A program made the translations under genes and the position numbers. A DNA stretch of 64,000 nt from positions 1-64,000 of the forward strand of contig CATLHM010000004.1 in assembly GCA_949949005.1 (NCBI GenBank). The letters run 5' to 3'. Numbering within the stretch: position 1 is the first letter of the stretch; each line of letters starts with the position of its first letter. The notes below the pieces were generated by a model, which did no database searches, was not told the DNA's origin, and was given only the letters and a program-made list of their open reading frames with translations. This document shows, piece after piece, positions 28,049 to 47,258 of this stretch. Origin of the DNA: an uncultured Lachnospiraceae bacterium. Its GTDB lineage: Bacteria > Bacillota > Clostridia > Lachnospirales > Lachnospiraceae.

Positions 28049-28246
28049 TTGGATTAACGGCGCTACCCAGTATCCTTTGTTTAGAGATCTTTGGGATCTG
28101 GATGGAGGAGACTGGGCAGATAAAGATCATTTCAATTTAATTCGATAAACATAAAATTAATATTGACATAAAATCATAATATACATATAATTAAAATATG
28201 CAAAATAAAACGATATAAATAAACATGAAACCTGCAGGATTTGAAA

Positions 28247-28310
28247 GATGCAGAGATGCAGAGATGCAGAGATGCAGAGATGCAGAGATGCAGAGATGCA
28301 GAGATGCAGA
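28247..28310. repeat. Octamer microsatellite, eight copies of GATGCAGA
   Basis: Eight perfect copies of an 8-bp unit end directly at the ribosome site (GAAGGAGG, 28311-28318) of the next gene. A unit that is not a multiple of three makes slippage change leader length and the frame of any upstream start. Confidence 0.95.
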
Positions 28311-28322
28311 GAAGGAGGGAAA

Positions 28323-31491: not shown

Positions 31492-31818
31492 CTACTGTGC
31501 AAGCTCCTGATACATGAGTCCCCATTTTCTCATTTCCTCAATCACAGGGCACAGGGATTCTCCTAGACCGCTCAGGGCATATTCCACTCTGGGTGGGACT
31601 TCGGCGTAGACAGTCCTTGTGATGATTCCGTCCGCCTCCATGGAACGCAGGGAGTCGGTCAAAACCTTCTGGCTGATGCCCTTCAAATCCCGTTGCAGCT
31701 CGTTGAACCGCCATGGGCGGGAGATCAGGTTGCGTATAATGAGAAGCTTCCATTTATTTCCAATCATGCTGACGGTGATGGCTACGGCGCATTCCGGTAA
31801 GTCTTCTTTTCTTCTCAT
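31492..31818 (-). CDS. HxlR-family transcriptional regulator
   Basis: A 108-aa winged-HTH protein: CAVAITVSMIGNKWKLLIIR, RPWRFNELQRDLKGISQKVLT and YAEVPPRVEYALSGLG are the HxlR hallmarks. One conserved Cys (CAVAIT) near the N-terminus is the redox or electrophile-sensing position in HypR/QorR-like members. The gene has its own promoter with a palindrome around the -10, so it is probably autoregulated. The likely target is itself and perhaps the ECF gene 160 bp downstream. Confidence 0.9.
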   Translation of the reverse strand: MRRKEDLPECAVAITVSMIGNKWKLLIIRNLISRPWRFNELQRDLKGISQKVLTDSLRSMEADGIITRTVYAEVPPRVEYALSGLGESLCPVIEEMRKWGLMYQELAQ

Positions 31819-31901: not shown

Positions 31902-32087
31902 TAGGGGACAGTCCGCAAGTATTATAAATATCTTTCCTTTTTCCAGCTTTTTTACCATTACAAGATGCAGCCCCTTCGGGTATAATCTAACAAAACCTTT
32001 ATACCTTATAACTCAGACTTCCCGAAATCGGTGTGGGAAGTTCGGGTGATAGCTCGGAAGAAATGGGGAGACGTTTGGGAGGGGCCC

Positions 32088-33608
32088 ATGAAAATACTGA
32101 TTGCGGATGATGAGGATTATACCAGGGAGGGGCTGGTGGATGCCGTTAACTGGGAGGAATACGGGATTGATGAGATTATGCAGGCGGTGAACGGGGCGGA
32201 GGCGGTGAGGATTGCCAGGTGGTTTTTGCCGGACATTATTCTGACGGATGTGCGGATGCCTCAGATGGACGGGATCGAGTTCGCAACAAAGGTTTTGGGG
32301 TGGAACCCGGACTGCCGGATCATTTTCATGAGCGGCTATATGGAGATCGAGTATCTAAGGAGCGCGATCCGGCTTGCCGCCATCGATTATATCGAAAAGC
32401 CCATCGATCTGCCTGTTTTGTGTGAGGCTCTTGCACGGGCGATGAGGGAGATCAGGGAAAAGTCCAGGACGGACACGGCGACCCGGGCGGGAAGGGAATT
32501 TCAGCAGCACAGGCTTTTTAATCTCCTGACCAGCAGGGAGAGGGAGAAAAAGGCGGTGGAGAATCTGGCGGCGGAGATGGATTTTCCGCTGAATCAGTGT
32601 ATGCACTGCATGATCCTTCAGATGCCGGGAAGGGTAGGCGGATGGGAGGAGCAGATGGAGCGGGCGGCACAGGCGGTTCGGTCCTCTTTCTGTGCGGTTA
32701 TAGGAACCTGTCAGAGACAAAAGCGCCAGTACGAGTTTATCCTCTCTTATGCGGAGAAGGATCGGTACCGCCTGTCCTCTTTTTATCAGAAGCTCCTTGG
32801 GGAATTTCCCCAGGTGAGGCTGGGAATCGGGATGGATACCAGTCATTACAAAAATGTTTACAACAGCTACCAAACGGCCTGTATGGCGATCAACTGCGCC
32901 TTTTATCAGGAGGGAGAGAGGTTCTTTCAGATTGATGAGGGGATTTTGCAGAAAAACTATATAGAACCGGGGATTTATGGAGAGTTTCTCCAGATTCTTT
33001 CCCAGCAGCCCCAGAACCTGGACCAGTGGTTTGAAGGGCTCTTTGACAGGCTGTATCAATATAAATATTATCAGAAAGAACAGGTCTATACGCTGATGAT
33101 CTCTTTCCTCACGGCGATCTATAAAAAATATCCGGAGATTTACGGGACGGATACGGGGATCTGGAAGGAGGAGCAGATTTCAGCCTGTGTGCGGGAGACG
33201 GACTTTCTCTGCGAGATCAGGGAGTTTGTCAGGCGGCTCTTAAGATGTCTGAAGGAAAAGCAGGAGGAACAGGCGGGATACGGGCGTATTATCCGGGGCG
33301 TGATGGATTATGTGGCGGAGCATTACGGGGAAGAGGATCTGAGCGTGGTACAGATTGCGGAACATCTTCACTTTTCCGCGGTTTACCTGAATGTATTGTT
33401 CAAGCAGGAAAGGAAGATGACCCTGAAGCAGTATTTAAGTTATTACCGGCTGGAGAGGGCGAAGCGGATGCTGGAACAGGATTATGACAAGATTACGGAG
33501 ATCGCAGAAAAATGCGGCTATGCCAATGCGAACTATTTTGCAAAGGTGTTCCGGGAGGCCACCGGTATGTCTCCGGCACAGTACCGCCGGCAGAAGGGCG
33601 GCCAGTGA
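32088..33608 (+). CDS. YesN-type response regulator with AraC HTH
   Basis: A 506-aa regulator. The receiver at 1-120 has ADDEDYTREGL, the phospho-Asp in DIILTDVRMPQMDG and a Lys in YIEKPID. A long middle region precedes a C-terminal double HTH of AraC type (VVQIAEHLHFSAVYLNVLFK, ITEIAEKCGYANANYFAKVF, GMSPAQYRR). The start is ATG 32088, where the receiver begins, with GGGAGGGG upstream. The next gene is its kinase (1-bp stop/start overlap). This pair type controls carbohydrate ABC operons such as the one downstream. Confidence 0.93.
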   Translation: MKILIADDEDYTREGLVDAVNWEEYGIDEIMQAVNGAEAVRIARWFLPDIILTDVRMPQMDGIEFATKVLGWNPDCRIIFMSGYMEIEYLRSAIRLAAIDYIEKPIDLPVLCEALARAMREIREKSRTDTATRAGREFQQHRLFNLLTSREREKKAVENLAAEMDFPLNQCMHCMILQMPGRVGGWEEQMERAAQAVRSSFCAVIGTCQRQKRQYEFILSYAEKDRYRLSSFYQKLLGEFPQVRLGIGMDTSHYKNVYNSYQTACMAINCAFYQEGERFFQIDEGILQKNYIEPGIYGEFLQILSQQPQNLDQWFEGLFDRLYQYKYYQKEQVYTLMISFLTAIYKKYPEIYGTDTGIWKEEQISACVRETDFLCEIREFVRRLLRCLKEKQEEQAGYGRIIRGVMDYVAEHYGEEDLSVVQIAEHLHFSAVYLNVLFKQERKMTLKQYLSYYRLERAKRMLEQDYDKITEIAEKCGYANANYFAKVFREATGMSPAQYRRQKGGQ

Positions 33609-35454
33609 TGAAGCGGGCGTTCAGGAACAGGGAGGAGCGTAAGAAGCCAGTGATGAAGCGGGAGGCCGGATGCAAGGCGGAGCTCAGGCGGCTCACGGCA
33701 TGGTACCGCAGGCTTTCCTTAAAGGGCAAGATCGTGCTTTTGGTGTATCTGGCAGGGGTGCTTCCCGTGGGGGTCATTCTGGTGATCTCCCTTTTGGAAA
33801 TGCAGGGACGTTCCAGGCAGCAGCAGCTTTATGCCCTGAATCAGGGGTATAGTCAGATGTGCCAGTCAATTGAGGACAAGATGACCCGCATTCAGAATAT
33901 ATCCACCTTGCTTGCGGTGAATGAGACCATCAATCTGAATCTGACGCTGGCGGACGGGGAGATCAGCATCGCCCAGCAGCTTGCGAATTTTGAGAGCATC
34001 AATTCCTATACCTATGGAATGGAGATGGCCTTTGAGTACGGCAATATTTTGTTTTATATAGACGATTCCTTTCCGGTGGTGAACAGCCACAGTGGGCGTT
34101 ATCGTCCCCTTGCGCTGGCACAGGAGATGGACTGGTACGGGATTCTGGAAAAAAACAACGGAAGGCCTACCTGGGTCAGCTTTCAGGAGGATATTTACGA
34201 CAAAGGGCATTCCTATGTGGCGATCACCCGCAAGCTGTGGGATCAGGAGGACTTCAGTAAGGATATAGGGGTACTGGCGGTGCGGATGGAGAGGGAAGCT
34301 CTTGAGGAGATGCTGATCGGCTCCGTACAGCAGCAGATCATTTTCCTGCAGACAAACCAGGGTCAGATTATTGCGGCCAATGTGCCGGAGGAAGAGCTGG
34401 CGGAGCTTCTGCGGGGCGGGGAGGCCAAAACGGGGCAGGGGATAAGGATTTTAGGGAAATCGCCGTCAATAACGTGAGGTATCTGGTAAGGAGCCAGCTG
34501 CTTGACAAGACGGATACCTATCTGGTTTCCATGGTGCCCTGGCGCGTTATGGAGGAAGAGCTTCTGGCAATGAACACGGGAACGGGCTTCCTTTATCTGC
34601 TGGTGTGCGCCGCAGTGTGGATTGCCTTTGTGCCCATCATCCGGTCCGTCACCGGGCGTATGCAGCTATTGCAAAACCAGATGATGCAGATCCAGGATGG
34701 GATTATCCGGAAACTGGATGTTGAGGAAGGCGATGAGGACGAGATCGGGCGTCTGATCACCCATTATAACGAAATGGTGGATAAGGTGGAGGAGTTGATG
34801 CGGGAGCAATATGTTCTGGGTCAGGAAAAGGCCGGAGCAGAGCTGCGTGCCCTGCAGTCTCAGATCAACCCTCATTTTCTCTATAATACGCTGGATATGA
34901 TCAACTGGATGGCGCAGAAGAACGAGATAGACAATATCCACAATATTGTCCAGGCCCTGTCCCATTTTTATCGGCTGATTCTCAGCAAGGGGAAGGATGT
35001 GGTCACCATTGCGGACGAGGTAAAGCTCTGCGGGGCTTATATGGAGATCCAGAAGCGCCGTTACCGGGGAAGAATCCGCTATACGGCGGAGGTGGAGGAG
35101 GAGGTCATGGACTGTCTCATTCCCAAGATCACCTTACAGCCTTTCTTGGAGAATGCGGTAATTCACGGGATCAATGAAAAGGAAAGCCCAAGGGGAGCAG
35201 TGTTTCTGAGCGGCTGGATGGAGGATGGGAGGATCACCTTAAGCGTTACGGACGACGGTGTGGGGATGCAGGAGCACGCTAAGGAGAACAGCGCCGGCGG
35301 GAGCCATTATGGGATGAAGAACATTGCAGAGAGATTAAAGCTTTTTTACGGGGAGGAGATTCCGCTGCAGGTGGAAAGCTCGCCGGGAGTGGGAACCTGT
35401 GTCATTATCAATATCCCTGTAAAGAAGCGGCAGGAGGGGGAAGTTTGGAAGTAA
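33608..35454 (+). pseudogene. YesM-type sensor histidine kinase, interrupted by a frameshift
   Basis: The first frame (33608-34477) has a TM helix (LLVYLAGVLPVGVILVISL) and most of a dCache-like sensor, then stops. A second frame (opening around 34441, GTG at 34474) continues the sensor (YLVRSQLLDKTDTYLVSMVPW), a second TM, HAMP, the His-kinase box QSQINPHFLYNTLDMINW and HATPase (LQPFLENAVIHG, DDGVGM). Joined, they give one normal YesM of about 610 aa, so a 1-nt loss near 34420-34455 has split the gene. Unless this is a read error, sensing is broken while the cognate regulator is intact. Confidence 0.85.
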
Positions 35455-36993
35455 ATGAGAAAATATCTGATTATTTTGATCTTGCTTGGCATCGTGGCCG
35501 CCTCCGTGGGCTGCGGCGGGGGACAGGTGCAGGAGCAGGCGCAGGGATCTGCTTCTGTGGTGAATTTCCGTGCCATCTATCTGGGAAACGCGCCCAGAGA
35601 AGGGCTCGAAGAACTGTATGAGAGCTTGGACGCTCTCACCGTCCGGGAGCTTGGATGCACTTTGAGGTTTGAATTTATACCATGGGGAAATGAGCGGGAG
35701 CAGCTCAATATTGCCATCGCGTCGGGAGAGTACGACTTTATTCCGGGCGGCGTGTTTTCCGATTATCGGACGCTGGTGGGAAAGAATGCTTTCCTTGATC
35801 TGAATGAATATCTCTATCTGACGCCGGAGCTGACAGAGCACTATGGAACCTACAGCCAGACGGCCCTTAAGGACTGTGAGATTCAGGGCGGGCTCTATGG
35901 TATCCCCCAATTTGATATGGGGGCGATTAAGAATGTGAATGAAGGATTTTTTTACCGGGAGGATTTAAGGAAGGAGTGGAATCTACCAGAGATCACGGAT
36001 CTGGACTCCATGGAGGCGTATCTGTACCGCGCCAAGCAGGAGGAGCGTTATCGGGATGAGCCCCTGATCACGGATAACCGGATCTGGCAGTCCCTGTGGC
36101 TGCTTCTCACGAAAGGGAAGTATCTGGAAATCAGCAGCATGCAGGAGATGCCCTTTGTGGTAGTTGCGGCCGGGGAACCGGACATCGTGCTGAACAGACT
36201 GGAGCAGCCGGAGTTTCTTACGGTGCTGGAATATATCGAGAGATGGCGCAGGGACGGGATATTGGAATCGGATCTTCTTGCCATGTCCGATAATGAGGGG
36301 GAGAGGGGCAAGAATATGATGCTGCAGGATCGAAAGCCCTGCGAGACCAATGTACCTGTCTGGTCTGCGCAGGCAGTCCATATCCCGGATCTGGCCAGAG
36401 AACATCCGCAGTGGGAATATGGTTTTTTCCCTTATGTTTCCGTGAATGAGGAATGGTATATCGGCACTCTGGCGGATGCCTCGGTAATATCCATATCCTC
36501 CAAGACCACGGAGCCGGAGATTGCCATAAGGCTTCTGGAAAAGATCCATACGGATCAGAGATATTATGATCTGCTTAAATACGGCGTGGAGGGAATCCAC
36601 TATCGGATGCAGGACGGGAAGATCAGCTATGAGCAGATCGACGGAAGCAGCAAATTTGGCTGGACGGTATGCACGGATCATCTGATGAACCGGGAGGAAG
36701 TCCCGGTGAGCAGCCAGTGGTACGAGGAGGTGGCGGTTTTGGTGGAGCAGTGGCGGGAGGAAATCAGCAGGGAAGCCAGACCCGATCCCCTTGAGGGCTT
36801 TTCCTTCTCAGCGGAAGGGGTCTATAAGGAGCTGGAGGCCATGGGGGAGGCCAGGCTGAAATACTTCCAGCCCCTGATCTGCGGTTATATGCAGGATCCG
36901 GCAGGGGAGCTGGAGCAGACGAAAGAAGCCCTTGCGGAGGCGGGGCTGGATACCTACATTGCCAGTATGCAGGAGCAGATTCGGGGCAGGTGA
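35455..36993 (+). CDS. Extracellular solute-binding lipoprotein (oligosaccharide ABC)
   Basis: A 512-aa secreted protein with signal peptide LIILILLGIVAASVGC (lipobox SVGC, Cys20). The mature part resembles LplA/YtcQ-type binding proteins (FREDLRKEWNLPEI-like FYREDLRK, GLYGIPQ). It follows the YesM stop with no gap and is followed by a terminator, so it belongs to the sensor operon rather than the permease operon. It may present ligand to the sensor. A second binding protein accompanies the permeases. Confidence 0.85.
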   Translation: MRKYLIILILLGIVAASVGCGGGQVQEQAQGSASVVNFRAIYLGNAPREGLEELYESLDALTVRELGCTLRFEFIPWGNEREQLNIAIASGEYDFIPGGVFSDYRTLVGKNAFLDLNEYLYLTPELTEHYGTYSQTALKDCEIQGGLYGIPQFDMGAIKNVNEGFFYREDLRKEWNLPEITDLDSMEAYLYRAKQEERYRDEPLITDNRIWQSLWLLLTKGKYLEISSMQEMPFVVVAAGEPDIVLNRLEQPEFLTVLEYIERWRRDGILESDLLAMSDNEGERGKNMMLQDRKPCETNVPVWSAQAVHIPDLAREHPQWEYGFFPYVSVNEEWYIGTLADASVISISSKTTEPEIAIRLLEKIHTDQRYYDLLKYGVEGIHYRMQDGKISYEQIDGSSKFGWTVCTDHLMNREEVPVSSQWYEEVAVLVEQWREEISREARPDPLEGFSFSAEGVYKELEAMGEARLKYFQPLICGYMQDPAGELEQTKEALAEAGLDTYIASMQEQIRGR

Positions 36994-37008
36994 AAATTTC
37001 TATAAACG

Positions 37009-37041
37009 GCGTTCACGAAAAAACGTGGGCGCTTTTTTTTT
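37009..37041 (+). terminator. Terminator of the YesNM/binding-protein operon
   Basis: GCGTTCACG / CGTGGGCGC (two G-T wobbles) with loop aaaaaa, then nine T residues. Confidence 0.92.
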
Positions 37042-37079
37042 AACATAAGGGCAGTTCGCAAAGCGTGCTGCCCGTTGTT
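37042..37079. repeat. REP-like element 2, copy 2
   Basis: AACATAAGG-GCAG, loop, CTGC-CCGTTGTT. It keeps the conserved ends with a different compensated inner stem (GGGCAG/CTGCCC). It starts right after the U run of a terminator. The rest of the gap to 37242 holds no ORF I trust. Confidence 0.7.
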
Positions 37080-37242
37080 ATGCGCAGGCCCGTGCATAAA
37101 GCGCTACAGCGCTTGGAATTTTGAAAATTACCCGAAATCCAGTTTTTTTTCTGTTGGTTTCCCTTTTTCGGAAGAATAAAATGGAAAAAAAAGACGCGGC
37201 AGAGGGCTTACGGGCTGTCGGCGGTAGAAGGGAGGTAAGGCA

Positions 37243-38211
37243 ATGAAGAAAGGCAAGACCACAGGGATGGGAGCTGATAGAAGCGGAGAGCGGCTTGGCC
37301 TAAAGGGCGGGCTCAGTGAGCTGTGGAAGAACAGACTGCTGTATCTGATGACGGTTCCGTCGATCATCTGGGTGGCGGTTTTCTGTTATTATCCCATGTA
37401 CGGGATTCTGATTGCATTCAAGAAGTTCAGCTACAAGGAGGGAATATGGGGGAGCCCCTGGGCGGGGTTGGAGAACTTCCGGTTCCTGTTTAACTACAAT
37501 GGAGTGGGGAGAATCTTTTTTAATACCATTTTTCTGAATGTGCTGTTCCTGATAAGTACTACGCTGCTCTCCATCGTGCTGGCGCTGGTGTTTGTGGAGA
37601 TCAAAAACAAGGTCTATAACAAGATCGTACAGACCATAGCGATCTTTCCCCACTTTGTATCCTGGACAGTGGTGGCTATGTTCATGAGCGGCATTATCGG
37701 CAGCAGCGGGATCATTACCAGATGGGTGATGGAGGCAGGCGGGGAGGATCCCCTGTTTTACAACACGCCGGGATGGTGGCCATTGATTCTGGTATTGCTG
37801 CGTATCTGGCAGGGGGCCGGCTATGGAACCATTGTCTATGTGGCGGCGATCACGGGCTTTGACCAAGAGATGTACGAGGCGGCAAAGGTGGACGGCGCCA
37901 CCAGGCTGCAGCAGATCACCAGGATCACCCTTCCGCTTCTTAAGACCACGGCGATCATGCTCACCATCATGGGGATCGGCAAGATATTCAACGGTGACTT
38001 CGGCATGATTTATGCGCTGGTAGGGGATAACGCAGGCCTGTATCCCACCACGGATGTAATTGATACCTTTGTATACCGGGCCCTGCGGCAGCTTAACAAT
38101 CTGGGCATGAGCACGGCGACCAGCTTATTCCAGTCCGTAGTGGGTCTGATCCTGGTATTTACCACCAATGCGGTGACGAAAAAAATCGAGCCGGATGCGG
38201 CAATCTTTTAA
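37243..38211 (+). CDS. Carbohydrate ABC transporter permease, LplB type
   Basis: A 322-aa membrane protein with six TM segments, the N-terminal signature LYLMTVPSIIWVAVFCYYPMYGI and the EAA loop (QEMYEAAKVDGATRLQQITRITLP) that contacts the ATPase. It forms a heterodimer with the next permease. GGGAGGTAAGG precedes the ATG. The ATPase (MsmX-like, shared) is not in the window. Confidence 0.92.
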   Translation: MKKGKTTGMGADRSGERLGLKGGLSELWKNRLLYLMTVPSIIWVAVFCYYPMYGILIAFKKFSYKEGIWGSPWAGLENFRFLFNYNGVGRIFFNTIFLNVLFLISTTLLSIVLALVFVEIKNKVYNKIVQTIAIFPHFVSWTVVAMFMSGIIGSSGIITRWVMEAGGEDPLFYNTPGWWPLILVLLRIWQGAGYGTIVYVAAITGFDQEMYEAAKVDGATRLQQITRITLPLLKTTAIMLTIMGIGKIFNGDFGMIYALVGDNAGLYPTTDVIDTFVYRALRQLNNLGMSTATSLFQSVVGLILVFTTNAVTKKIEPDAAIF

Positions 38212-38226
38212 CGGGGGTGAGATACA

Positions 38227-39135
38227 GTGAGCAAGATAAAAGTAACGGGTTCCCAGATCAAAAAGTCCAGGGGAGAAAAAATATTTGAGATCGTGGTATA
38301 TGCCATTGCCACAGTTTTTTGTATCTACTGTCTCTTCCCCTTTGCGATTATTCTTGGCAGCAGCTTTGAGACAGAGGCAAATTTCGCGACTTATGGGTTT
38401 CCGATTATACCCAAAGACTTTACCCTGACGGCGTACAAGCTGGTGCTGGGAGACGGGCAGATCTTCCGGGCCTATGGGGTCACCATCTTTACCACAGTGG
38501 CGGGGACGTTGTTTAGTATGTTCCTGACCATCACCATGGCTTACCCTTTGTCCCTGAAAAAGGTAAAGTTCAGGAATGTGATCACGTTCTTTGTCTATTT
38601 TACCATGTTGTTTGGAGGAGGGCTGGTGCCCACCTATTTACTGATCACCAAAAATCTGAATATGAAAAACAATATTTTTGTTCTGATCATCCCGGTGGCG
38701 TTCAGCGCCTGGAACATGTTCCTGATGAGGAATTTCTTCAACGGAATTCCCCATGAGCTGTCGGAATCGGCTTATATGGACGGGGCCAACGATTTCCAGA
38801 TTTTGTGGAAAATCATTCTCCCGGTGTCTGTTCCGGGCATCGCAACCCTGAGCCTGTTCTATGCTCTGGGTTACTGGAATCAGTGGTTCAACGCCATGCT
38901 CTACCTTGAGGACAACAGGCTTTTTCCTCTGCAATATCTGCTGATGCGGATGCTGCGGAACATGGATGCCATGAAGGAGATGGCCAGAACCACAGGGATG
39001 GCCTCGGGGGAGGTGCCTGCCAATTCCCTGCGGATGGCTACCACGGTGGTTGCCATAGGGCCCATTGTGCTGCTGTATCCTTATGTACAGAGGTTTTTTA
39101 CCAGCGGCCTTACCGTGGGGGCGATCAAGGGTTAG
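38227..39135 (+). CDS. Carbohydrate ABC transporter permease, YtcP/LplC type
   Basis: A 302-aa, six-TM permease: YCLFPFAIILGSSFETEANFATYGFPIIP near the start, the EAA loop LSESAYMDGANDFQILWKIILP and the closing RFFTSGLTVGAIKG, typical of YtcP/LplC partners of LplB. GTG or ATG choice does not change the call; GGGGGTGAGATACA lies upstream. It is 15 nt after the LplB-type gene. Confidence 0.92.
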   Translation: MSKIKVTGSQIKKSRGEKIFEIVVYAIATVFCIYCLFPFAIILGSSFETEANFATYGFPIIPKDFTLTAYKLVLGDGQIFRAYGVTIFTTVAGTLFSMFLTITMAYPLSLKKVKFRNVITFFVYFTMLFGGGLVPTYLLITKNLNMKNNIFVLIIPVAFSAWNMFLMRNFFNGIPHELSESAYMDGANDFQILWKIILPVSVPGIATLSLFYALGYWNQWFNAMLYLEDNRLFPLQYLLMRMLRNMDAMKEMARTTGMASGEVPANSLRMATTVVAIGPIVLLYPYVQRFFTSGLTVGAIKG

Positions 39136-39211
39136 CGACGTATGGGGCATTGCGAGACGGAATGTTTCGCGATTTCCAATAAATTTATTATCAGTAAGGA
39201 GGATATGAAAA

Positions 39212-40951
39212 ATGACCAGAAAAAATCTTTTTCGGAAGGTGATGGCTGCGGCTGTCACAGGAGCAATGGTTTTGTCCCTTTGCGCCTGTTCCGGTGGGGC
39301 AAAGGATGAGGGCGCCGGCGCAGATGCTGCGGACACGGCAGAGGAATCCGGACAGGAGGATGCCGGGGAGAATGCTGCTGCGGACGAAAGCTCCGGGGAG
39401 GCAGAGGGCGGCGATGGGGCGGCTCCTGCGGTGGAGTTGGAAGATACCACTATCAACATCCGTGTGATGAACGAGTTCCGCAACCTGGATAAGGTGCTGG
39501 CAAAGTATGAGGAGATGACGGCGGATGACCCTGTCATGAGCAAAATCCACCCGGAATTTACCTTTGTGGCAGGAGGAGATTACAAGGACAAGCTGAGTAT
39601 GGCCCTGGTTGCCCAGGAGGACTACGATCTCATGTTCTGCGGCGGCTGGCACGGCCTTTCCACATTTATCCAACAGGGAAACTTTGCGGATCTGACATCC
39701 TACTTTAACAATGATGCGTTTCCCGGACTTAAGGGCGCCTTTTCAGAGAACTTTGTGAATGCTATGACCTCCTATGTCCTGATGGAGGACGGCTCCTACA
39801 AGACGGGAATATTCGGCATTAACTTGGCTACCTCCTATGAGGACAGCAGGGGCTTTATGTATCGTGAGGATCTTCGGAAAAAATACGACTGCGATCCCAT
39901 CACGGACGAGGAAAGCCTGTTTGAATTCGTGAAGACTGTTGCGGAGAATGAGCCGGACATGATCGGCGTGAGCCTGTGGAATTTCTTCCGTATGGATTCC
40001 CCCTGGTATTCGGCAAAGCATGACAATGTGTACACACAGGACAATGTAAATGTGCTGGGGGACCAGACCTGGGTGTATGTGGGACTCAGTGAGGATAATA
40101 AGACGGTTTTAAACGCCGTGGTTGCAGGAGACTCTGAGGAAGAGTTTGCTAAAATGCCGGAAGGCTATCAGTATGATTTTATCACAGAGTATACCAAAGA
40201 GCGTACCAAATGGAATCCTTATTTAAGCCCTACCCGGGGGTCAACGGACGCGGTGGAAAAGGATGCGGCGATCACCTACTGTGCGCTTACGGAATATGAA
40301 GCCAAGGTCAAGGATGCCCTGGCGAATAACCCGGATGCGGAATTTGGTTATTATGTGATCGAGGATGCCCAGCGTAACCAGGAGCCGGGGGCAGTAGTCT
40401 GCGATATGGCAACCAACAACTGGCTGGTAGTTCCCGAGTGGTCGGAGAAGGTGGATGCCGTTATGTATTTCCTGGACTGGATGTTTGGAAGCCAGGAAGC
40501 TCATGATCTATTCCAGTATGGTATCGAGGGGGAAGACTGGGAGGCCATCGGTGAGGACGGCTATAAGCAGCTTGACCTTCCGGAGGAAGAGCAGTATGTG
40601 ATGCCCGGCTATTCCTTTACCTGGAATCCCGCTTATATCAGGAACAGTGAGTTTGTCATGAACGACGCCGAGCTGAAGAAGCGCTTTGATTATATCTATG
40701 ATGAGGCCACCTATCAGCTCAGTCCTCTCTCGGGATTTACCTTTAACACGGCAAACGTGGAGACCCAGGTGGCAAACGTGTCCGCCCTGTCAAACGAGCT
40801 TCAGCTCACGCTCTCCATGTATGATGCGGACGAGGCGGCAGAGAAGATCAACACCTGGCATGAGGAAGCATCGAAGGTTGGACTGGAAGAGATCCGCGCA
40901 GAGCTGATCGCACAGCTTCAGGCATTTTTGGATGCAAAAAATGCGGGTTGA
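39212..40951 (+). CDS. Extracellular solute-binding lipoprotein of the LplBC transporter
   Basis: A 579-aa protein: signal peptide ending in lipobox LSLCAC (lipidated Cys), then a low-complexity Ala/Gly/Glu/Asp linker of about 50 residues that spaces the binding domain from the membrane, then an LplA-like body (DYDLMFCGGWHG, GFMYREDLRKKYDCDPI, NNWLVVPEWSEKV). AAGGAGGAT precedes the ATG. It is the presumed receptor of the two permeases directly upstream; the substrate is probably a complex glycan fragment. Confidence 0.9.
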   Translation: MTRKNLFRKVMAAAVTGAMVLSLCACSGGAKDEGAGADAADTAEESGQEDAGENAAADESSGEAEGGDGAAPAVELEDTTINIRVMNEFRNLDKVLAKYEEMTADDPVMSKIHPEFTFVAGGDYKDKLSMALVAQEDYDLMFCGGWHGLSTFIQQGNFADLTSYFNNDAFPGLKGAFSENFVNAMTSYVLMEDGSYKTGIFGINLATSYEDSRGFMYREDLRKKYDCDPITDEESLFEFVKTVAENEPDMIGVSLWNFFRMDSPWYSAKHDNVYTQDNVNVLGDQTWVYVGLSEDNKTVLNAVVAGDSEEEFAKMPEGYQYDFITEYTKERTKWNPYLSPTRGSTDAVEKDAAITYCALTEYEAKVKDALANNPDAEFGYYVIEDAQRNQEPGAVVCDMATNNWLVVPEWSEKVDAVMYFLDWMFGSQEAHDLFQYGIEGEDWEAIGEDGYKQLDLPEEEQYVMPGYSFTWNPAYIRNSEFVMNDAELKKRFDYIYDEATYQLSPLSGFTFNTANVETQVANVSALSNELQLTLSMYDADEAAEKINTWHEEASKVGLEEIRAELIAQLQAFLDAKNAG

Positions 40952-40974
40952 TGTATGTAGCTGATTGGTAGAAA

Positions 40975-41026
40975 AAAGGGGATGTCGCACCAATGATTGA
41001 AAAACCAGAGAGGTGACAGCCCCTTT
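40975..41026 (+). terminator. Terminator after the LplBC operon
   Basis: AAAGGGG-a-TGTCgcACC / GGTGACA-g-CCCCTTT, a long interrupted stem with an A-rich loop, then ATTA. Confidence 0.65.
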
Positions 41027-41030
41027 ATTA

Positions 41031-41068
41031 AACATAAGGATGCCTGGAAAAGCCAGGCATCCGTTGTT
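41031..41068. repeat. REP-like element 2, copy 3
   Basis: AACATAAGGATGCCTGG, loop aaaag, CCAGGCATCCGTTGTT: a perfect 10-bp inner stem (GGATGCCTGG/CCAGGCATCC) with the conserved AACATAA and GTTGTT ends. It lies between a terminator and the YesL gene. Confidence 0.8.
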
Positions 41069-41105
41069 GACGGTGTGCCGTAAAAAAGCGGCGTATGGGG
41101 ATAAT

Positions 41106-41732
41106 ATGAGTATTTTCAATATGAACAGCCCGCTTATGAGGGGAATCAGAAAAATTGTGGAATTAATGTATCTGGGGCTGCTGTGGTTTCTGTGCAGCCT
41201 TCCGGTGGTCACGCTGGGAGCGGCAACAGCGGCCCTGTACGAGGTACTGCTTAAAGCCGTCAGGGATCAGGAGGGATACCTTACCGGAAGCTTCCTGCGG
41301 GCCTTTCGAGGCGGTCTTGGGCAGGGAATCCGGATCTGGCTGCCGGTGATGGCGGCGGGGATACTCTTTGCCGTGAACCTGTTTTATTACGCAGTGATAG
41401 GAAACAGGAGCTTTCCGATACAGACCGCTGTTTTTGCTCTCCTGCTGGGGGCTGTGGCCGTCTTGGCGTCCTATGTATTTCCGGTAATGGCAAAATTTGA
41501 GAATACTGCTACGGGCCATGTCCGTGTGGCGGCGGCTCTGGCGGTGAGAAACCCCGGATGGACCCTTGCCCTGCTGGCGATTCAAGTTCTGACGCTGTTT
41601 GTCATTTGGTTCTTTGTCTATTTTCCGCTGTTGTTTGTGATGGGATTCTCGGGATATGTGCAGGCGGTGATCTTTGAACATATCTTCGAGAGGGCGATCG
41701 GGCAGGGAATGATCAGGAAGGAGGGGCAGTAA
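41106..41732 (+). CDS. YesL family protein (DUF624)
   Basis: A 208-aa protein with about five TM segments and the family opening MNSPLMRGIRKIVELMYLGLLWFLCSLPVVTLGAATAALY. DUF624 proteins accompany YesMN/LplBC loci and their role is unknown. ATG 41106 follows a GGGG stretch. It comes after a terminator and a REP-like element, so it may be weakly or separately expressed. Confidence 0.88.
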   Translation: MSIFNMNSPLMRGIRKIVELMYLGLLWFLCSLPVVTLGAATAALYEVLLKAVRDQEGYLTGSFLRAFRGGLGQGIRIWLPVMAAGILFAVNLFYYAVIGNRSFPIQTAVFALLLGAVAVLASYVFPVMAKFENTATGHVRVAAALAVRNPGWTLALLAIQVLTLFVIWFFVYFPLLFVMGFSGYVQAVIFEHIFERAIGQGMIRKEGQ

Positions 41733-41808
41733 CAAAAAATGTATTGCATCAAGCGCCCTTTGACGGTATTCTTTTGATAGAAAAGATGCAGCGTGGAGGT
41801 TGGCTCTT

Positions 41809-42570
41809 ATGTTTCAGTTATTGCTGGTGATTATTTACCTTGCCTTTATCAGTCTGGGGCTTCCGGATTCCCTGTTAGGTTCCGCATGGCCCACCATGTA
41901 TCAGGAGTTTTCCGTGCCGGTTTCCTATGCGGGCGGGATTTCCATGATTATCGCTGTGGGGACGATCGTTTCCAGCCTGCAGAGTGACAGGCTGACCAAA
42001 AGATTCGGAACGGGGAAGGTTACGGCTGTCAGTGTGTTAATGACTGCCGTCTCGCTGTTTGGATTTTCCGTCAGCCATTCCTATGCTGCGTTGTGCCTGT
42101 GGGCCATTCCTTACGGGCTTGGCGCAGGAAGTGTGGACGCTTCTCTGAATAACTATGTGGCGCTTCACTATGCAAGCAGGCACATGAGCTGGCTCCACTG
42201 TATGTGGGGCGTCGGCGCCTCCCTCGGCCCGTATATCATGGGCTTTTCGCTCTCCCGCGGACAGAGCTGGAATATGGGTTATCGCTATATTGCCATCCTC
42301 CAGATTGCACTGACCGCTATCCTGATTTTCAGTCTGCCTTTATGGAAAAAACAGGGCACAGACGATACAGGGCAAACGGAGGGGGAGAGAAAGGCCAAGC
42401 CCCTTTCTCTGCGCCAGATTATCGGGATTTCGGGGGCAAAAGAAATTATGATTACCTTTTTCTGCTATTGCGCTCTGGAACAGACAACCGGCTTATGGGC
42501 AAGCAGTTATCTTGTGCTGCGCCGGGGATTGTCGGCAGAAACTGCCGCCGGATTTGCAAGCCTGTTTTAA
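41809..42570 (+). pseudogene. MFS transporter, 3'-truncated (N-terminal two-thirds)
   Basis: 253 residues covering about seven TM helices of a FucP/YfkF-like MFS sugar or drug transporter (LPDSLLGSAWPTMYQEF, MSWLHCMWGVGASLGP). Family members run to about 390-400 aa. Here the frame ends just after AAGFASLF, in the middle of a conserved segment, and the convergent kinase gene begins 18 bp later. The missing end suggests a deletion or replacement at 42570. Start ATG 41809 follows GTGGAGG. Confidence 0.75.
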
Positions 42571-42587
42571 AAGTGAATGGCCGCCGC

Positions 42588-43100
42588 TTACCCCAACAAT
42601 CCCTTAACAATGATCTCCGCACATTCCGCCGCGCTGTGCAGACTCGTATCTACCCTTAAACTGTACGCAATATCTTTTGCCATCAATTCCTGCTGCTCCT
42701 GCGATTGGCTTTCGTATCTGTCCCCACGGATCAAATTTCTTTTCCTGCACAGATCCAGGGGGCAGTATACTTCAACCAAATCCAGGGGATTGTCTTTCAG
42801 GATTTCCAACAACTGCAGATAATGCGGTGTGATCTCATCCCTTTCCACTAAGATTCCGTCGATCAGCACATTTTTACCCAGATCGGAATAAAGCCTCGCA
42901 GTATGATACATCATGATGATTACTTCGCTGAGATATTTCCAGTAGTTTTCACGCAAATATTTTTCTCCAACCATTTCCTGAAACAAATCATTGGCAACGA
43001 CATAAAAGAATACGTCGTCACGCTCCTGAATGGCTTCGACGATTGACGTTTTCCCTGCGCTGGTTACTCCGTTTAAAAAAATAATGCGTCCTTTTTCCAT
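42588..43100 (-). CDS. Chloramphenicol phosphotransferase-like P-loop kinase
   Basis: A 170-aa protein with P-loop FLNGVTSAGKTSI and a CPT-like layout (NVLIDGILVERDE, LDLVEVYCPLDLCRKR, RGDRYESQSQEQQ). The CPT family includes a chloramphenicol-inactivating kinase and many proteins of unknown substrate, so resistance should not be assumed. Its 3' end abuts the truncated MFS gene on the other strand. Confidence 0.82.
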   Translation of the reverse strand: MEKGRIIFLNGVTSAGKTSIVEAIQERDDVFFYVVANDLFQEMVGEKYLRENYWKYLSEVIIMMYHTARLYSDLGKNVLIDGILVERDEITPHYLQLLEILKDNPLDLVEVYCPLDLCRKRNLIRGDRYESQSQEQQELMAKDIAYSLRVDTSLHSAAECAEIIVKGLLG

Positions 43101-43222
43101 GTGGTTACCTCACAGATTCCTATTACTCCATATCTCTACCTTTCTTATTATACCACTCAAACGTAGCGTTTCCGAATTTTTTAGTGCCCCAAAACAGCGT
43201 ATTTGTCCAATTCTTACCAAAA

Positions 43223-43279
43223 AGTAACCTGGGTTACTCAAAAGTGCGTACTTGTGGGATTTCTGCCAACCCATATAAT
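43223..43279 (+). promoter_or_regulatory. Promoter and 16-bp palindrome upstream of the repeat peptide
   Basis: AGTAACC-TG-GGTTACT (43223-43238) is a perfect 7-2-7 inverted repeat, a good repressor or activator site. TTGTGG (43252-43257), 16 nt, TATAAT (43274-43279) follows. The peptide gene starts 107 nt downstream. The region is shared with the divergent CPT-like gene. Confidence 0.6.
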
Positions 43280-43385
43280 GAAAATTACAGAAGGCAATTG
43301 AAGAGGCAGTGAGTAAGCTTCCGGCTTCATAGCTGCTGAACAATTGTGTCTGCCAAAATCAATTGAATAAAGGAGGTACAGAGAA

Positions 43386-43727
43386 ATGGCATTAGCAAAC
43401 ATAGCCGGATGGAACGGGAATACGGCAGGAAGCGCCTGCGGGGCAGGGGACAAGGAAAAGCCCGCAGCCTGTGGTTCCGCCTGCGGAGCAGGAGACGAGA
43501 AGAAGCCTGCAGCCTGTGGCTCTGCCTGCGGAGCAGGGGACAAAGAAAAGCCCGCAGCCTGTGGTTCTGCCTGCGGAGCAGGGGACGAGAAGAAGCCTGC
43601 AGCCTGTGGTTCCGCTTGCGGGGCAGGAGACGAGAAGAAGCCCGCAGCCTGTGGTTCCGCTTGCGGGGCAGGAGACAAGGAGAAGCCTGCAGCCTGTGGC
43701 TCTGCCTGCGGAGCAGGGGAGAAATAA
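43386..43727 (+). CDS. Cys-rich tandem-repeat peptide precursor (ACGX-like RiPP)
   Basis: A 113-aa protein: a 14-residue leader-like start (MALANIAGWNGNTA), six 15-residue repeats of GSACGAGD(K/E)(E/K)KPAAC, and a final partial GSACGAGEK. Each unit carries two Cys in ACGA and ACGS contexts, 13 Cys in all; charges alternate KEK/EKK. The DNA array is a 45-bp minisatellite (43428-43726). AAAGGAGG precedes the ATG, a sign of strong translation. A radical SAM/SPASM gene follows, so this is the likely substrate of post-translational thioether-type or related modification. The final product is unknown. Confidence 0.85.
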   Translation: MALANIAGWNGNTAGSACGAGDKEKPAACGSACGAGDEKKPAACGSACGAGDKEKPAACGSACGAGDEKKPAACGSACGAGDEKKPAACGSACGAGDKEKPAACGSACGAGEK

Positions 43728-43761
43728 GCAATACTTCCCCTAAAGGCATGAAAAGTGGTGC

Positions 43762-43798
43762 GGGAAACGCCATAAACAAAAGGTTTAGGGCGTTTCCC
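43762..43798 (+). terminator. Hairpin between precursor and maturase
   Basis: GGGAAACGCC / GGCGTTTCCC, a 10-bp perfect stem with a 17-nt loop and no long U tract. This placement is common in peptide clusters, where it lets the precursor be made in excess over the enzymes. Confidence 0.6.
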
Positions 43799-43885
43799 AA
43801 ATAACAGGTTCCTTGTCGCCTGGAGGGTGTTTGAAAATAACAGTTATGCGACTGTTTCGATAAAAAAGTGGAAGGAGCTGGGAGG

Positions 43886-44944
43886 ATGAAGCCCTATTTT
43901 TCATTTCAATGGCATATTACAGACGAATGTGACCAGCGGTGCAAGCATTGTTACATTTATTCGGCGGGGAAGCACGACTGCCTGCAATCCATGGCATGGA
44001 TGCAGATCAGGGAAACCTTTTACAATTGCCTGGATTTCTGCAAGGTGTATGGGCGGACCCCCTATTTTTACATTACCGGAGGGGATCCGATCCTGCACCC
44101 AAACTTCTGGAAGCTTTTAAAGCTTTTGCAGGGGCACGGCATCAGGTTTAGCATCCTTGGGAATCCCTTTCATTTGAATGAGCAGGTGTGCCGGGAATTA
44201 AAAGAGTATGGCTGTGAGAAATATCAGCTTTCCCTGGATGGGCTCCGCCAGACCCACGACTGGTTTCGAAAACCCGGTTCCTTCGACTGTACGCTTGAAA
44301 AAATCCCATGTATCAATAAGGCGGGAATACGCAGCGTCATCATGACCACTGTTTCTAAGGCGAACTGTAAGGAGATGGCGGGAATCATTGACGCGGCAGT
44401 TGGGGCCGGGGTAAATGTCTTTGCCTTTGCCAGATATGTACCGGGCGGCGGTGAGCTGGACAGTGGCATGACGGCCCGGGAGTACAGGGAGGTTCTGGCT
44501 CTCTGTGATCAGAAATTCAAAGAATACGAGGCAAAGGGCTGCCAGACCTATTTTAATAAAAAGGATCATCTCTGGACGCTTTATGAATACGAAAACGGAG
44601 AGTTCCGGATTCCGGAGGATGCAAAGGAAGGGATGATTTACGGCGGCTGCAACTGCGGGAACTGCCATCTGACGATTCTGCCTTCCGGTGAAATCTACGC
44701 CTGCCGCAGGGTGGCGCAGAGCCGGGTGGGGAATGTTTTGGAGGATCGCATCGCAGATGTGTGGGTTACGGGCATGGAGCAATACCGCGAGTATGAAAAA
44801 TTCAGCAAATGCGCCAGGTGTAAGCTGCTTGCATGGTGCAGGGGCTGTCCTGCCGTGGCGAAGGGAACCTGTGGGGACTTCTATGGGGAGGATCCTCAGT
44901 GCTGGGCGACGGAGGAAAGCGGCCTGATCGCAAAGGCAAGGTGA
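43886..44944 (+). CDS. Radical SAM/SPASM peptide maturase (ACGX-type system)
   Basis: A 352-aa enzyme with the radical SAM motif CDQRCKHC (Cys15, 19, 22), ITGGDP (GGE-like SAM-binding motif) and a C-terminal SPASM region with Cys pairs in GGCNCGNCHLTILPSGEIYAC and CARCKLLAWCRGCP...C. It should bind three Fe-S clusters and modify the neighbouring Cys-repeat peptide. ATG 43886 has GAAGGAG 8 nt upstream; the frame from GTG 43868 would include this site. I recall a radical SAM family named for an 'ACGX' peptide system that fits; no search was possible. Confidence 0.88.
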   Translation: MKPYFSFQWHITDECDQRCKHCYIYSAGKHDCLQSMAWMQIRETFYNCLDFCKVYGRTPYFYITGGDPILHPNFWKLLKLLQGHGIRFSILGNPFHLNEQVCRELKEYGCEKYQLSLDGLRQTHDWFRKPGSFDCTLEKIPCINKAGIRSVIMTTVSKANCKEMAGIIDAAVGAGVNVFAFARYVPGGGELDSGMTAREYREVLALCDQKFKEYEAKGCQTYFNKKDHLWTLYEYENGEFRIPEDAKEGMIYGGCNCGNCHLTILPSGEIYACRRVAQSRVGNVLEDRIADVWVTGMEQYREYEKFSKCARCKLLAWCRGCPAVAKGTCGDFYGEDPQCWATEESGLIAKAR

Positions 44945-44999
44945 AGGCTTTATCGCTGCCAGATACATACCGAAAAAGCAGAATAAGGAGAATGATAGG

Positions 45000-45761
45000 A
45001 TGGATGTAAAAACCTGTTTAGAAAAGCTGGGCTATGTGGGAGTGTTGAATTTTGCCACGGTGGATGAGGACGGCGGCCCACAGGTTCGGAATATCAGCGC
45101 GGTTCACTATGAGGGAACGGATATTTACTTTCTGACGGCACGGGGGAAGTCCTTTGCCAGACAGCTCTACCGGGACGGCAGGGTGCAGATATCCGGCTAC
45201 ACCCGATACAAGGAAACGATCCGCATATCGGGAATCGCCCTGGAAGCGCCAGAGGAGGAGCAGCTCCAATGGCGGGATATTCTGTATCGGGAGCAGCCCT
45301 ATCTGGAAAATGTGTATCCGGGCGAAACCAAGAACATTGATACCATATTTGTCATCAAAAATTATACAATAGAGTATTTTTGTTTATCCACCAGACCCAT
45401 CACAAGGGAGTATTTCACGGTGGGCGACGGGATCTTGAAGCCGAAAGGATACCGGATTACAGAGGCCTGCATCGGCTGTGGAAAATGCGCCAGAGTCTGC
45501 CCGCAGAAAGCCGTGTACAAAGTCACGGATAAGGACGTAGGCAATGTTGAGGACGAAACCGTGTACAAAGCCCTGGACAAAGGTGAGGACAAACCCGGAG
45601 ACAAATCTGGGGGCAAATCCGGGGACAAATCTGGGGACAAGGCTACGGGGAAAGGCGGGAGCAGGGCAACCCCCAATTCCTACATCATACGGCAAAACAA
45701 TTGCCTGCAATGCGGAAACTGTTTCGAGAATTGCCCGGTGAAGGCGATCAGGAGACATTGA
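45000..45761 (+). CDS. Flavin split-barrel (PNPOx-like) fused to a 2[4Fe-4S] ferredoxin
   Basis: A 253-aa protein. Residues about 1-130 form a pyridoxamine-oxidase-like FMN-binding barrel (GVLNFATVDEDGGPQVRNIS, YFLTARGKSFARQL). Residues about 155-253 carry two complete clusters, CIGCGKCARVCP and CLQCGNCFENCP. Between the clusters lies an unusual 55-60 residue Lys/Asp/Gly-rich insert with GDKSG-type repeats. It probably supplies electrons to the radical SAM enzyme or to a flavin step in the peptide pathway (inference). AAGGAGAATGATAGG lies upstream. Confidence 0.88.
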   Translation: MDVKTCLEKLGYVGVLNFATVDEDGGPQVRNISAVHYEGTDIYFLTARGKSFARQLYRDGRVQISGYTRYKETIRISGIALEAPEEEQLQWRDILYREQPYLENVYPGETKNIDTIFVIKNYTIEYFCLSTRPITREYFTVGDGILKPKGYRITEACIGCGKCARVCPQKAVYKVTDKDVGNVEDETVYKALDKGEDKPGDKSGGKSGDKSGDKATGKGGSRATPNSYIIRQNNCLQCGNCFENCPVKAIRRH

Positions 45762-45788
45762 TTTAAGCAACAGAAAGGACGGTTTATT

Positions 45789-46352
45789 ATGGAATTAATG
45801 GAAGCAATCAAAGGCAGGCGTTCGGTTCGGAGATTTCAGGATACTCCGGTGCGGCGGGAAGTCGTTGAAAAAATACTGGAAGTGGTGGATTACTGCCCCA
45901 ATGCGGGGAACCGCAATTCTACGAGGGGGGTCGTGATGACTGATCGGGAAATGATTGATTATATCGGAAAAGCGCACATGAAGATAATACGGAATTTCAA
46001 CGCAGGCATTACCGCGCTGCCGACAGAGGAGGAGATCATGGCGTCGGAAAGCGCATTCCACAATGCGGGGACGGTGCTTGCCCTGTTCGGCCCGGAGAAC
46101 TTTTATTTTTCGTCGCCGGACGCTTATATCATGGCCCAGAACATTACGCTTGCGGCCTATGAGCAAGGTGTTTCCACCTGCATCGTGGGGGAGGTCTTAA
46201 ATTCCCTTGCCACTCAAAAGGGACAGGAGTATCAGAAGAGTATGGGCATACCTGCCGGTTTTGTGCCACAGGCCTATATCACCCTCGGGTATTGTGACGG
46301 GGACTACCCCAAACACCCTGGGCGGCATTATTCTGATTTTATTTATGTATGA
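45789..46352 (+). CDS. Nitroreductase family protein
   Basis: A 187-aa FMN-dependent oxidoreductase-like protein: MEAIKGRRSVRRFQDTPVRREVVEKIL at the N-terminus, CPNAGNRN (flavin-contact region) and a closing ITLGYCDGDYPKHPGR. It starts 28 nt after the ferredoxin fusion with AGAAAGGACGG upstream. In this context it may oxidise or reduce residues of the modified peptide, as nitroreductase-like dehydrogenases do in other peptide clusters; that is inference. Confidence 0.88.
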   Translation: MELMEAIKGRRSVRRFQDTPVRREVVEKILEVVDYCPNAGNRNSTRGVVMTDREMIDYIGKAHMKIIRNFNAGITALPTEEEIMASESAFHNAGTVLALFGPENFYFSSPDAYIMAQNITLAAYEQGVSTCIVGEVLNSLATQKGQEYQKSMGIPAGFVPQAYITLGYCDGDYPKHPGRHYSDFIYV

Positions 46353-46451
46353 GAGCCGCCTGCTGTAGAAAGCACTGTTCTTTGCATACTATTTTGTGTT
46401 GCTCTGTGTATCAAAATTCCAGGGCAATTTTGGTCAGTCCCGAAAACGCAC

Positions 46452-46480
46452 AAGCTCCGGTTCCGGAGCTTTCGCTTTTT
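46452..46480 (+). terminator. Terminator of the peptide cluster
   Basis: AAGCTCCGG-tt-CCGGAGCTT, 9-bp stem, followed by TCGCTTTTT. Confidence 0.88.
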
Positions 46481-46531
46481 GCCTATGAGGCGCTGGTATA
46501 AAAAAATAGAAGAAAAACAGCCCGGCTTTTA

Positions 46532-46560
46532 TTGCTCTGAGCCGCATATGGAATTATACT
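46532..46560 (+). promoter_or_regulatory. Promoter of the two-component genes
   Basis: TTGCTC (46532-46537), 17 nt, TATACT (46555-46560), 32 nt upstream of the regulator start. Confidence 0.7.
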
Positions 46561-46592
46561 ACTGATAGAAAAGCTAAAGGGCGTGGAGGGAC

Positions 46593-47258
46593 ATGGCGAA
46601 TATTTTAATTGTGGAAGATGAAAAGAAGATGCAGGAAATCATTGCCGAATATATGCGGAGGGGCGGCCACACCTGCTTTGTGGCGGATGACGGTGTGGAT
46701 GGGCTGATGGCGCTGAAAAACAATCCGATGGATCTGATGATACTGGATATTATGATGCCACATCTTGACGGTTTTTCCGTCTGCAAAATGGCAAGGGAGA
46801 TGAGCGGCCTTCCCATTATCATCCTGACAGCCAAGGGCGGAGAGGATGATAAGCTGAAAGGCTATGATTTGGGTGCGGATGATTATATGACGAAACCATT
46901 CAGCCCCAAAGTGCTGCTTGCCAAAGTGAATGCATTGCTGCGCCGTTCCTCTGCACTTCCGGCAGAGATCATAAACGCGGGAAAAATTTCTGTCATTCCC
47001 GCCTCACATAAAGTATTCCTGGACGGACAGGAGATTGTGCTGACCTACAAGGAATATGAATTGCTTCATTTCTTTATGGCCAATCCCGGACAGGTATTTA
47101 GCCGGGAGCAGTTGCTGAACCGGATTTGGGGATATGACTTTGAGGGAACAACCCGGACGGTGGACACCCATATCAAAACCCTGCGCCAAAAGTTAGGTGG
47201 GGAGGGGAAACACATTGTTACTCTGGTTCGCTCTGGCTATAAGTTCGAGGTGGTATGA
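46593..47258 (+). CDS. OmpR/PhoB-family response regulator
   Basis: A 221-aa regulator. The receiver has VEDEKKMQ, the phospho-Asp in LMILDIMMPHLDG and DYMTKPFSP; the C-terminal winged helix has LTYKEYELLHFFMANPGQVFSREQLL, RTVDTHIKTLRQKLG and VRSGYKFEV. GCGTGGAGGGAC precedes the ATG. It overlaps the kinase gene by 4 nt. The target is unknown; the adjacent peptide cluster is one candidate. Confidence 0.95.
   Translation: MANILIVEDEKKMQEIIAEYMRRGGHTCFVADDGVDGLMALKNNPMDLMILDIMMPHLDGFSVCKMAREMSGLPIIILTAKGGEDDKLKGYDLGADDYMTKPFSPKVLLAKVNALLRRSSALPAEIINAGKISVIPASHKVFLDGQEIVLTYKEYELLHFFMANPGQVFSREQLLNRIWGYDFEGTTRTVDTHIKTLRQKLGGEGKHIVTLVRSGYKFEVV

Follow-up and report, generated by a model that had tools for sequence, protein, structure and literature searches.

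Systems of the ACGX type, in which a radical SAM/SPASM maturase (family model TIGR04340) accompanies a cysteine-repeat precursor peptide (TIGR04341), are, as far as our searches of the open-access literature show, known as family models only. Among the papers listed by those searches, which did not extend to subscription journals, we found no description of what either protein does, in agreement with the initial annotation of the locus examined here. This locus occupies positions 43223..46480 of the window, the whole stretch of 64,000 nucleotides from an uncultured Lachnospiraceae bacterium that was analysed. Described systems with related components provide points of comparison. In the PapA/PapB (freyrasin) system, PapB is reported to crosslink Cys-X3-Asp/Glu (PMC9413430), while SbtM is reported to turn Cys into a thiooxazole (PMC11002830). 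In Staphylococcus and Streptococcus, an extended operon groups the sirtuin SirTM and a Zn-macrodomain protein with a sulfur-bearing carrier and flavin oxidoreductases (PMC4518038, PMC11490716); the SirTM system with GcvH-L was first described in PMC4518038, and in the account of PMC11490716 GcvH-L is the only reported SirTM target, others having been elusive. In Bacillus subtilis, the regulators HypR, YodB and CatR sense hypochlorous acid (HOCl), quinones and diamide via an N-terminal Cys, and the nitroreductase YodC belongs to their regulons (PMC6943732).

The locus is a true member of the known, functionally dark ACGX family. Its maturase scored 574.5 bits against TIGR04340 (cut-off 400) and the adjacent peptide 96.7 bits against TIGR04341 (cut-off 28), with no difference in membership between the window proteins and the family. 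Since the maturase exceeds this cut-off, the objection that it might belong to an unrelated subfamily falls. Family profiles also recovered the flavin-ferredoxin fusion and the nitroreductase named in the initial annotation. The features of the unit are as follows.

43386..43727, plus strand: ACGX-repeat precursor peptide of 113 aa, with leader MALANIAGW and 13 Cys (TIGR04341)
43431..43724, plus strand: repeat array of six 45-bp units and a half unit (Tandem Repeats Finder, TRF)
43762..43798, plus strand: hairpin in the spacer between peptide and maturase, without a T-run (fold z -4.1)
43886..44944, plus strand: radical SAM/SPASM maturase of the ACGX type (TIGR04340)
45000..45761, plus strand: PNPOx-like flavin domain fused to two 4Fe-4S ferredoxin motifs (PF01243, PF00037)
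45789..46352, plus strand: nitroreductase-family flavin enzyme (PF00881, 83.6 bits)
46452..46471, plus strand: terminator-like hairpin followed by a T-run (hairpin scan)

Our preferred interpretation, to which we assign a probability of roughly 0.55, is that this is an intracellular locus induced by thiol or electrophile stress and arranged around a radical-SAM-modified peptide that works as a redox carrier. It draws on computed family membership, gene order, an operator-like box, the N-terminal Cys of an HxlR-type regulator, motif spacing in the peptide and co-occurrence among relatives.

The 113-residue substrate with six 15-residue units held up as initially annotated, except that the Cys total is 13 and not 12, the extra one belonging to a seventh half unit. 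The units read SACGAGD[KE][EK]KPAACG, the tandem array scored 400 to 461 in TRF, and the peptide carries seven CX3[DE] and six CX3C motifs. Where the six units differ in their codons, the change is mostly silent (over all pairs of units, 58 silent and 18 amino-acid-changing differences), which suggests that selection keeps the peptide sequence. For comparison with relatives, a pattern scan of GTDB species genomes gave at least 509 that were confirmed by tblastn at an E value of 1e-3 or better, and the locus set used below (n = 82) consists of the best 80 of these at least 509 relatives (L033 to L112) and two loci from viral contigs. A precursor was present beside the maturase in 74 of the 82 loci, 70 from a first search and four from a looser one. 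Five of the other eight have no upstream room, and L083, L107 and L113 remain without a precursor. The 69 distinct precursors contain 459 Cys altogether. An acidic residue (Asp or Glu) stands at +4 of 271 of them and another Cys at +4 of 170, together 441 of 459, and where a Cys stands at +4 this second Cys has its own +4 Asp in 157 cases and Glu in four.

The spacer between peptide and maturase (43728-43885) folds at z -4.1 relative to 30 base-shuffled copies, and by the same measure z fell below -2 in 59 of 68 loci, window included. The strong hairpin initially annotated as attenuating is present at 43762-43798, whereas attenuation itself is not demonstrated, the T-run being absent. No Rfam family reached its gathering threshold within 43000-46600. 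The terminator that was said to end the unit was found as a stem with a T-run at 46452-46471, for which the scan alone gives weak support (three terminator-like sites in the region versus 3.5 expected in shuffles).

In the maturase, the radical SAM motif CX3CX2C at residues 15-22 and the SPASM-region Cys are conserved in both alignments (A1 and A2). Alignment A2 left out L107, whose maturase frame (7001-8056) contains one stop codon and may be a pseudogene or an assembly error. In the window maturase Pfam showed only Radical_SAM and SPASM and no RRE, a domain that such scans easily miss. The second-best family after TIGR04340 is SbtM (TIGR04082), whose model was matched at an E value of 1e-20 or better by 34 of the 34 relatives scanned, the best reaching 6e-55. 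At 156.9 bits the window maturase lies below the SbtM cut-off of 350 and is not a member; it also lacks the N-terminal extension, its match spanning positions 198-515 of 516, and the window precursor contains no in-frame TGA (Sec) codon. The seven CX3[DE] motifs recall PapA, but the maturase scored 57.8 bits against the PapB model NF047865 (cut-off 340), no RRE was seen by Pfam, and the extra CX3C motifs and the redox-stress context are further differences from the freyrasin system. For the modification itself we tentatively favour thioethers, at slightly under even odds; thiooxazoles are possible and on balance unlikely, and other chemistry takes the remaining share.

The evidence for regulation comes from the region upstream of the peptide and from a regulator gene that in the window lies at a distance. 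The corresponding features are these.

43223..43238, plus strand: inverted repeat AGTAACC-TG-GGTTACT, first half of the operator-like region (read from the sequence)
43240..43253, plus strand: operator-like box AAAAGTGCGTACTT at the -35 position (conserved core in upstream regions)
43274..43279, plus strand: -10 box TATAAT (read from the sequence; not called by the consensus scan)
31492..31818, minus strand: HxlR/DUF24-type regulator of 108 aa with an N-terminal Cys, LPEC (PF01638, 105.9 bits, cut-off 20.8)
31907..43200, no strand assigned: intervening segment of 11.3 kb between HxlR and acgx (blastn against L147 and open reading frame (ORF) reading)

Among 71 upstream regions (those of 70 loci plus the window's own), the operator core GTGCGTACTT occurs in 65, versus 0.01 expected from base shuffles, and the longer box AAGTGCGTACTT in 46. 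A -10-like box follows the core at 20 nt in 28 regions and at 21 nt in 17 (45 in all, an uncontrolled count), and a loose GTTAC-n-GTAAC-like inverted repeat fits 59 of the 71, likewise counted without a shuffle control. Divergent HxlR-type regulators were mapped by tblastn in 63 of the 70 loci whose upstream sequence reaches 1.4 kb or more, and all 71 HxlR tblastn segments have a Cys within the first 14 residues. The ACGX-linked HxlR resembles those of the HypR, YodB and CatR regulons in its N-terminal Cys and its place beside reductase-type genes, and differs in that it additionally adjoins a radical SAM peptide cluster.

The box was also sought in a sample of 299 genomes (298 genera) of the window's family, in 36 of which a maturase exceeded the TIGR04340 cut-off; the cluster is not rare. 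The exact 14-mer AAAAGTGCGTACTT was found at 32 sites in 29 genomes, namely 15 of the 36 ACGX genomes versus 14 of the 263 others. By coordinate reading, ACGX clusters account for 13 of these sites, and the remaining 19 lie elsewhere. Seventeen of these 19 were examined (those in G192 and G171 were left out), and 12 of the 17 have an HxlR gene within the stretch, which is the best evidence for assigning the box to HxlR-type regulators. Read by eye, the genes downstream of these sites include nitroreductase-, flavodoxin- and PNPOx-like ones, with a macrodomain-SirTM pair in one stretch (L151) and a lone SirTM in another (L149); an amidohydrolase-like gene and a radical SAM gene were also among them.

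The window HxlR lies 11.6 kb from the acgx cluster and is the only HxlR detected in its own genome, which is 59% complete. An ortholog of the regulator that is divergent to acgx in relatives, it shares 68 and 73% identity with two HxlR queries from ACGX-linked loci and 88.8% with the HxlR of L147, the sole congener in the sample. In L147 the HxlR and acgx genes are divergent, and the blocks matching the window stand only 66 bp apart by blastn (L147 8606-9005 corresponds to window 31906-31511, and L147 8155-8539 to window 43630-43201). The simplest reading is that an insertion of about 11.3 kb split HxlR from acgx in the window. By ORF reading, the segment encodes a two-component regulator, solute-binding proteins, ABC permeases and an MFS protein; Pfam adds a kinase like chloramphenicol phosphotransferase (CPT) at 42588-43100 on the minus strand (PF07931, 92.9 bits), which remains below the NCBIfam CPT cut-off.

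By record title, the 82 loci come mostly from Lachnospiraceae, Oscillospiraceae and other Clostridia. A small number of animal-gut metagenome projects contributed many of them, and a few stray taxon labels may be binning errors. Neighbours were counted on a tblastn map of these loci, with downstream counts taken from the 61 loci that have over 3.9 kb downstream. A nitroreductase is present in 31 of the 61 and a quinone-oxidoreductase-like gene in 22, one or the other in 52; since both occur in only two (in L058 with the nitroreductase upstream), they look interchangeable. The PNPOx-ferredoxin fusion was found in 39 of the 61. In the congener L147 the unit runs acgx, radical SAM, PNPOx, nitroreductase, SirTM, and its PNPOx frame (6470-7081) apparently stops before the ferredoxin part. 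None of the four unit genes in the window matched a protease or exporter family in the NCBIfam and Pfam profiles, as initially annotated, and in a by-eye reading of the 30 largest neighbour clusters no peptidase stood out and transporters were rare (an ABC ATPase in five loci, a MATE-type protein in four). The earlier suggestion that the product may stay intracellular is favoured by the relatives' neighbour genes. Viral spread of the cluster was considered and set aside; on viral contigs, two of 42 pattern-matching stretches encode maturase relatives, at 51-52% identity; these are the viral-class contigs L113 (504 kb) and L114 (24 kb), the latter also with an ACGX precursor.

The relatives further associate the unit with ADP-ribosylation genes. 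A macrodomain gene is present in 34 of the 61 loci, a sirtuin in 37 and both in 33. The sirtuin is SirTM (best solved relative 5a3a, 222.7 bits), with the catalytic HG replaced by QG (QGDYG in 39 of 43 segments, HGDYG in none), and the macrodomain, judged on one representative, is of the protein-ADP-ribose hydrolase type (NF003163, 371.4 bits, cut-off 272; best solved relatives 8rsi and 5kiv). SirTM was detected at an E value of 1e-20 in 32 of the 36 ACGX genomes versus 117 of the 263 others (Fisher p 2e-7, shared ancestry uncorrected), and within 6 kb on the same contig in 20 of the 36. On a SirTM tree built by a quick method from 66 rows, the ACGX-linked SirTMs were clustered without forming a single clade, the link label changing 13 times versus 19.8 in shuffles, with at least three changes forced by strong branches.

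The arrangement in these relatives resembles the extended SirTM/Zn-macrodomain operon in that SirTM stands beside a macrodomain, oxidoreductase genes and a small sulfur-bearing protein, with a redox link (PMC4518038, PMC11490716). It differs in having an HxlR-type regulator and, as candidate carrier, a Cys-repeat peptide instead of lipoyl-GcvH-L. Of the 32 genomes with both ACGX and SirTM, 20 were searched for GcvH, and none gave a full-length match. Nine of the 20 showed weak, partial matches, of which three (22-25 bits, covering about half of the model) narrowly passed the Pfam cut-off; among control genomes, 10 of 14 passed it. Neither GcvH-L nor LplA was matched among the window unit genes; LplA was not searched genome-wide, and the relatives' neighbours were read by eye only. 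The sole carrier-like component of the ACGX unit is the Cys- and Asp-rich peptide, which by analogy, not proof, is the best candidate SirTM target.

In the scheme that we infer, the Cys-bearing HxlR repressor would occupy the predicted operator overlapping the -35 box, and thiol-reactive stress (quinones, disulfides, hypochlorite-like or other electrophiles) would lift the repression. The Cys-repeat peptide would then be produced in excess over its enzymes, a proposal suggested by the conserved hairpin that separates it from them, and the flavin-ferredoxin fusion would perhaps supply the electrons for the maturase. The maturase would act on the ACG units of the repeat and most likely form Cys-X3-Asp/Glu thioethers there, leaving the alternate CX3C cysteines free or paired. 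The product would remain in the cytosol as a redox or thiol carrier alongside the nitroreductase or, in other lineages, the quinone-reductase-like enzyme. In many relatives the SirTM/Zn-macrodomain pair of the unit probably ADP-ribosylates and de-ADP-ribosylates a unit component, for which the peptide is the best candidate. A bolder version, in which the ACGX peptide replaces lipoyl-GcvH-L as substrate of this pair and its Asp or free Cys are reversibly ADP-ribosylated, so that the carrier is switched off and on under thiol stress, strikes us as somewhat unlikely.

A different outcome would follow if the maturase worked like SbtM. Each ACG Cys would lose 4 H by oxidation and become a thiooxazole, and the metal-binding product would buffer or carry copper or another soft metal under stress. 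The rank of TIGR04082 just behind TIGR04340, with all 34 scanned relatives matching, and the reported activity of SbtM (PMC11002830) argue for this, and the nearly invariant A-C-G context fits it; the acid at +4 is left unexplained, the score remains below the SbtM cut-off, the precursor has no Sec codon, and inspection of the 30 largest neighbour clusters by eye picked out neither a metal transporter nor a metal regulator. As a whole we consider this explanation distinctly unlikely. It could also be supposed that the peptide is modified lightly or not at all and acts as a thiol sink or metallothionein-like buffer, with the maturase marginal. Its 13 thiols per 113 residues and the regulator from a thiol-stress-sensing family would suit such a role, but the peptide adjoins the maturase in 74 of the 82 loci and the maturase retains its radical SAM and SPASM-region cysteines, so that we give the idea very little credence.

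Many radical SAM peptides are secreted, and a Cys-rich repeat precursor with a conserved leader could be a ranthipeptide or bacteriocin-like signal that a housekeeping protease cleaves and a general exporter exports. The neighbours are instead a redox regulator and reductases, the repeats are charged and hydrophilic, and the 30 largest neighbour clusters, in which by eye no peptidase stood out and transporters were rare, speak against export; we regard a secreted signal as improbable. Similar doubt attaches to the peptide as raw material from which a redox cofactor is cut out for the nitroreductase or quinone-reductase-like enzyme. Mycofactocin and pyrroloquinoline quinone (PQQ) are precedents in which SPASM maturases stand beside oxidoreductases, and the presence of one or the other partner enzyme in 52 of the 61 loci agrees with them, whereas the window unit has no peptidase, many repeats replace a single core, and the mycofactocin maturase model gave only 78.2 bits with the window maturase.

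Several observations weigh against the redox-carrier interpretation that we prefer. The maturase is nearer to SbtM than to PapB (156.9 versus 57.8 bits), which argues for other chemistry. The thioether rule requires neither residue of the A-C-G context, in which Ala at -1 (448 of 459 Cys) and Gly at +1 (455 of 459) are nearly invariant, and 18 of the 459 Cys break the +4 rule, some of them at the ends of truncated ORFs. Locus counts are not independent, because repeats share ancestry and many close metagenome-assembled genomes are among the 80 best loci. For the operator, a reversed control pattern of the 14-mer gave 11 matches in 10 of the 299 genomes, a real background, and five of the 17 stretches examined away from ACGX clusters have no HxlR (L148, L149, L157, L161 and L165). 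An adjacent SirTM was not seen in 24 of the 61 loci, and neither SirTM nor the Zn-macrodomain is part of the window's own unit. In the window genome SirTM lies on a separate contig (C11) and groups with unlinked SirTMs, and the macrodomain lies on a third contig (C29), so that for the window the SirTM link rests on relatives. Twenty SirTM loci from ACGX-free genomes, taken from the top of the score list and not at random, contained a macrodomain in 17 cases, a nearby HxlR in 11 and a maturase in none; because HxlR/macrodomain/SirTM units occur without ACGX, the peptide cannot be the sole target of the pair. Such ACGX-free units were read in L175, L184, L186 and L188; they combine macrodomain and SirTM genes with HxlR and a reductase-like gene of PNPOx or NAD(P)-binding type. 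By eye, neither GcvH-L nor LplA was seen in the stretches that were read.

Other features of the region were also recorded. The linker between the 4Fe-4S motifs of the PNPOx-ferredoxin protein is rich in DKxGD/KSGDKSGGK and is encoded by a 12/24-bp repeat at 45565-45640; the shorter relatives in L062, L073 and L105 (about 208 aa) lack this insert. A response regulator and kinase at 46593-48355 were considered as members of the unit and rejected, since they lie past the terminator-like stem and are matched elsewhere only at scattered places. A plasmid origin of the locus was likewise set aside, the plasmid collection having given no match at megablast sensitivity. Elsewhere in the window, at 28246-28312, a perfect 8-bp tandem repeat (AGATGCAG, 8.4 copies) stands at an ORF start and is a possible phase-variable site.

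Comparative data were needed to bring out three features that go beyond the initial annotation: the operator-like region upstream, the HxlR regulator, and the connection with SirTM and the macrodomain. In the open-access literature searched, subscription journals again excepted, neither an HxlR operator nor an association with SirTM and macrodomain was found for ACGX systems. What is new is the unit's apparent place in a stress regulon of HxlR type, together with its apparent link to SirTM and the Zn-macrodomain in relatives. An HxlR-type regulator and an operator-like box beside ACGX offer a testable inducer, a binding site and two chemistries to distinguish by mass (-2 Da or -4 Da). For the elusive SirTM targets, the Cys- and Asp-rich peptide is a concrete candidate, its gene sharing a unit with SirTM in 37 of 61 loci. 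If the proposal is true, the ACGX product would be a ribosomally synthesized and post-translationally modified peptide that is used within the cell and governed by ADP-ribosylation.

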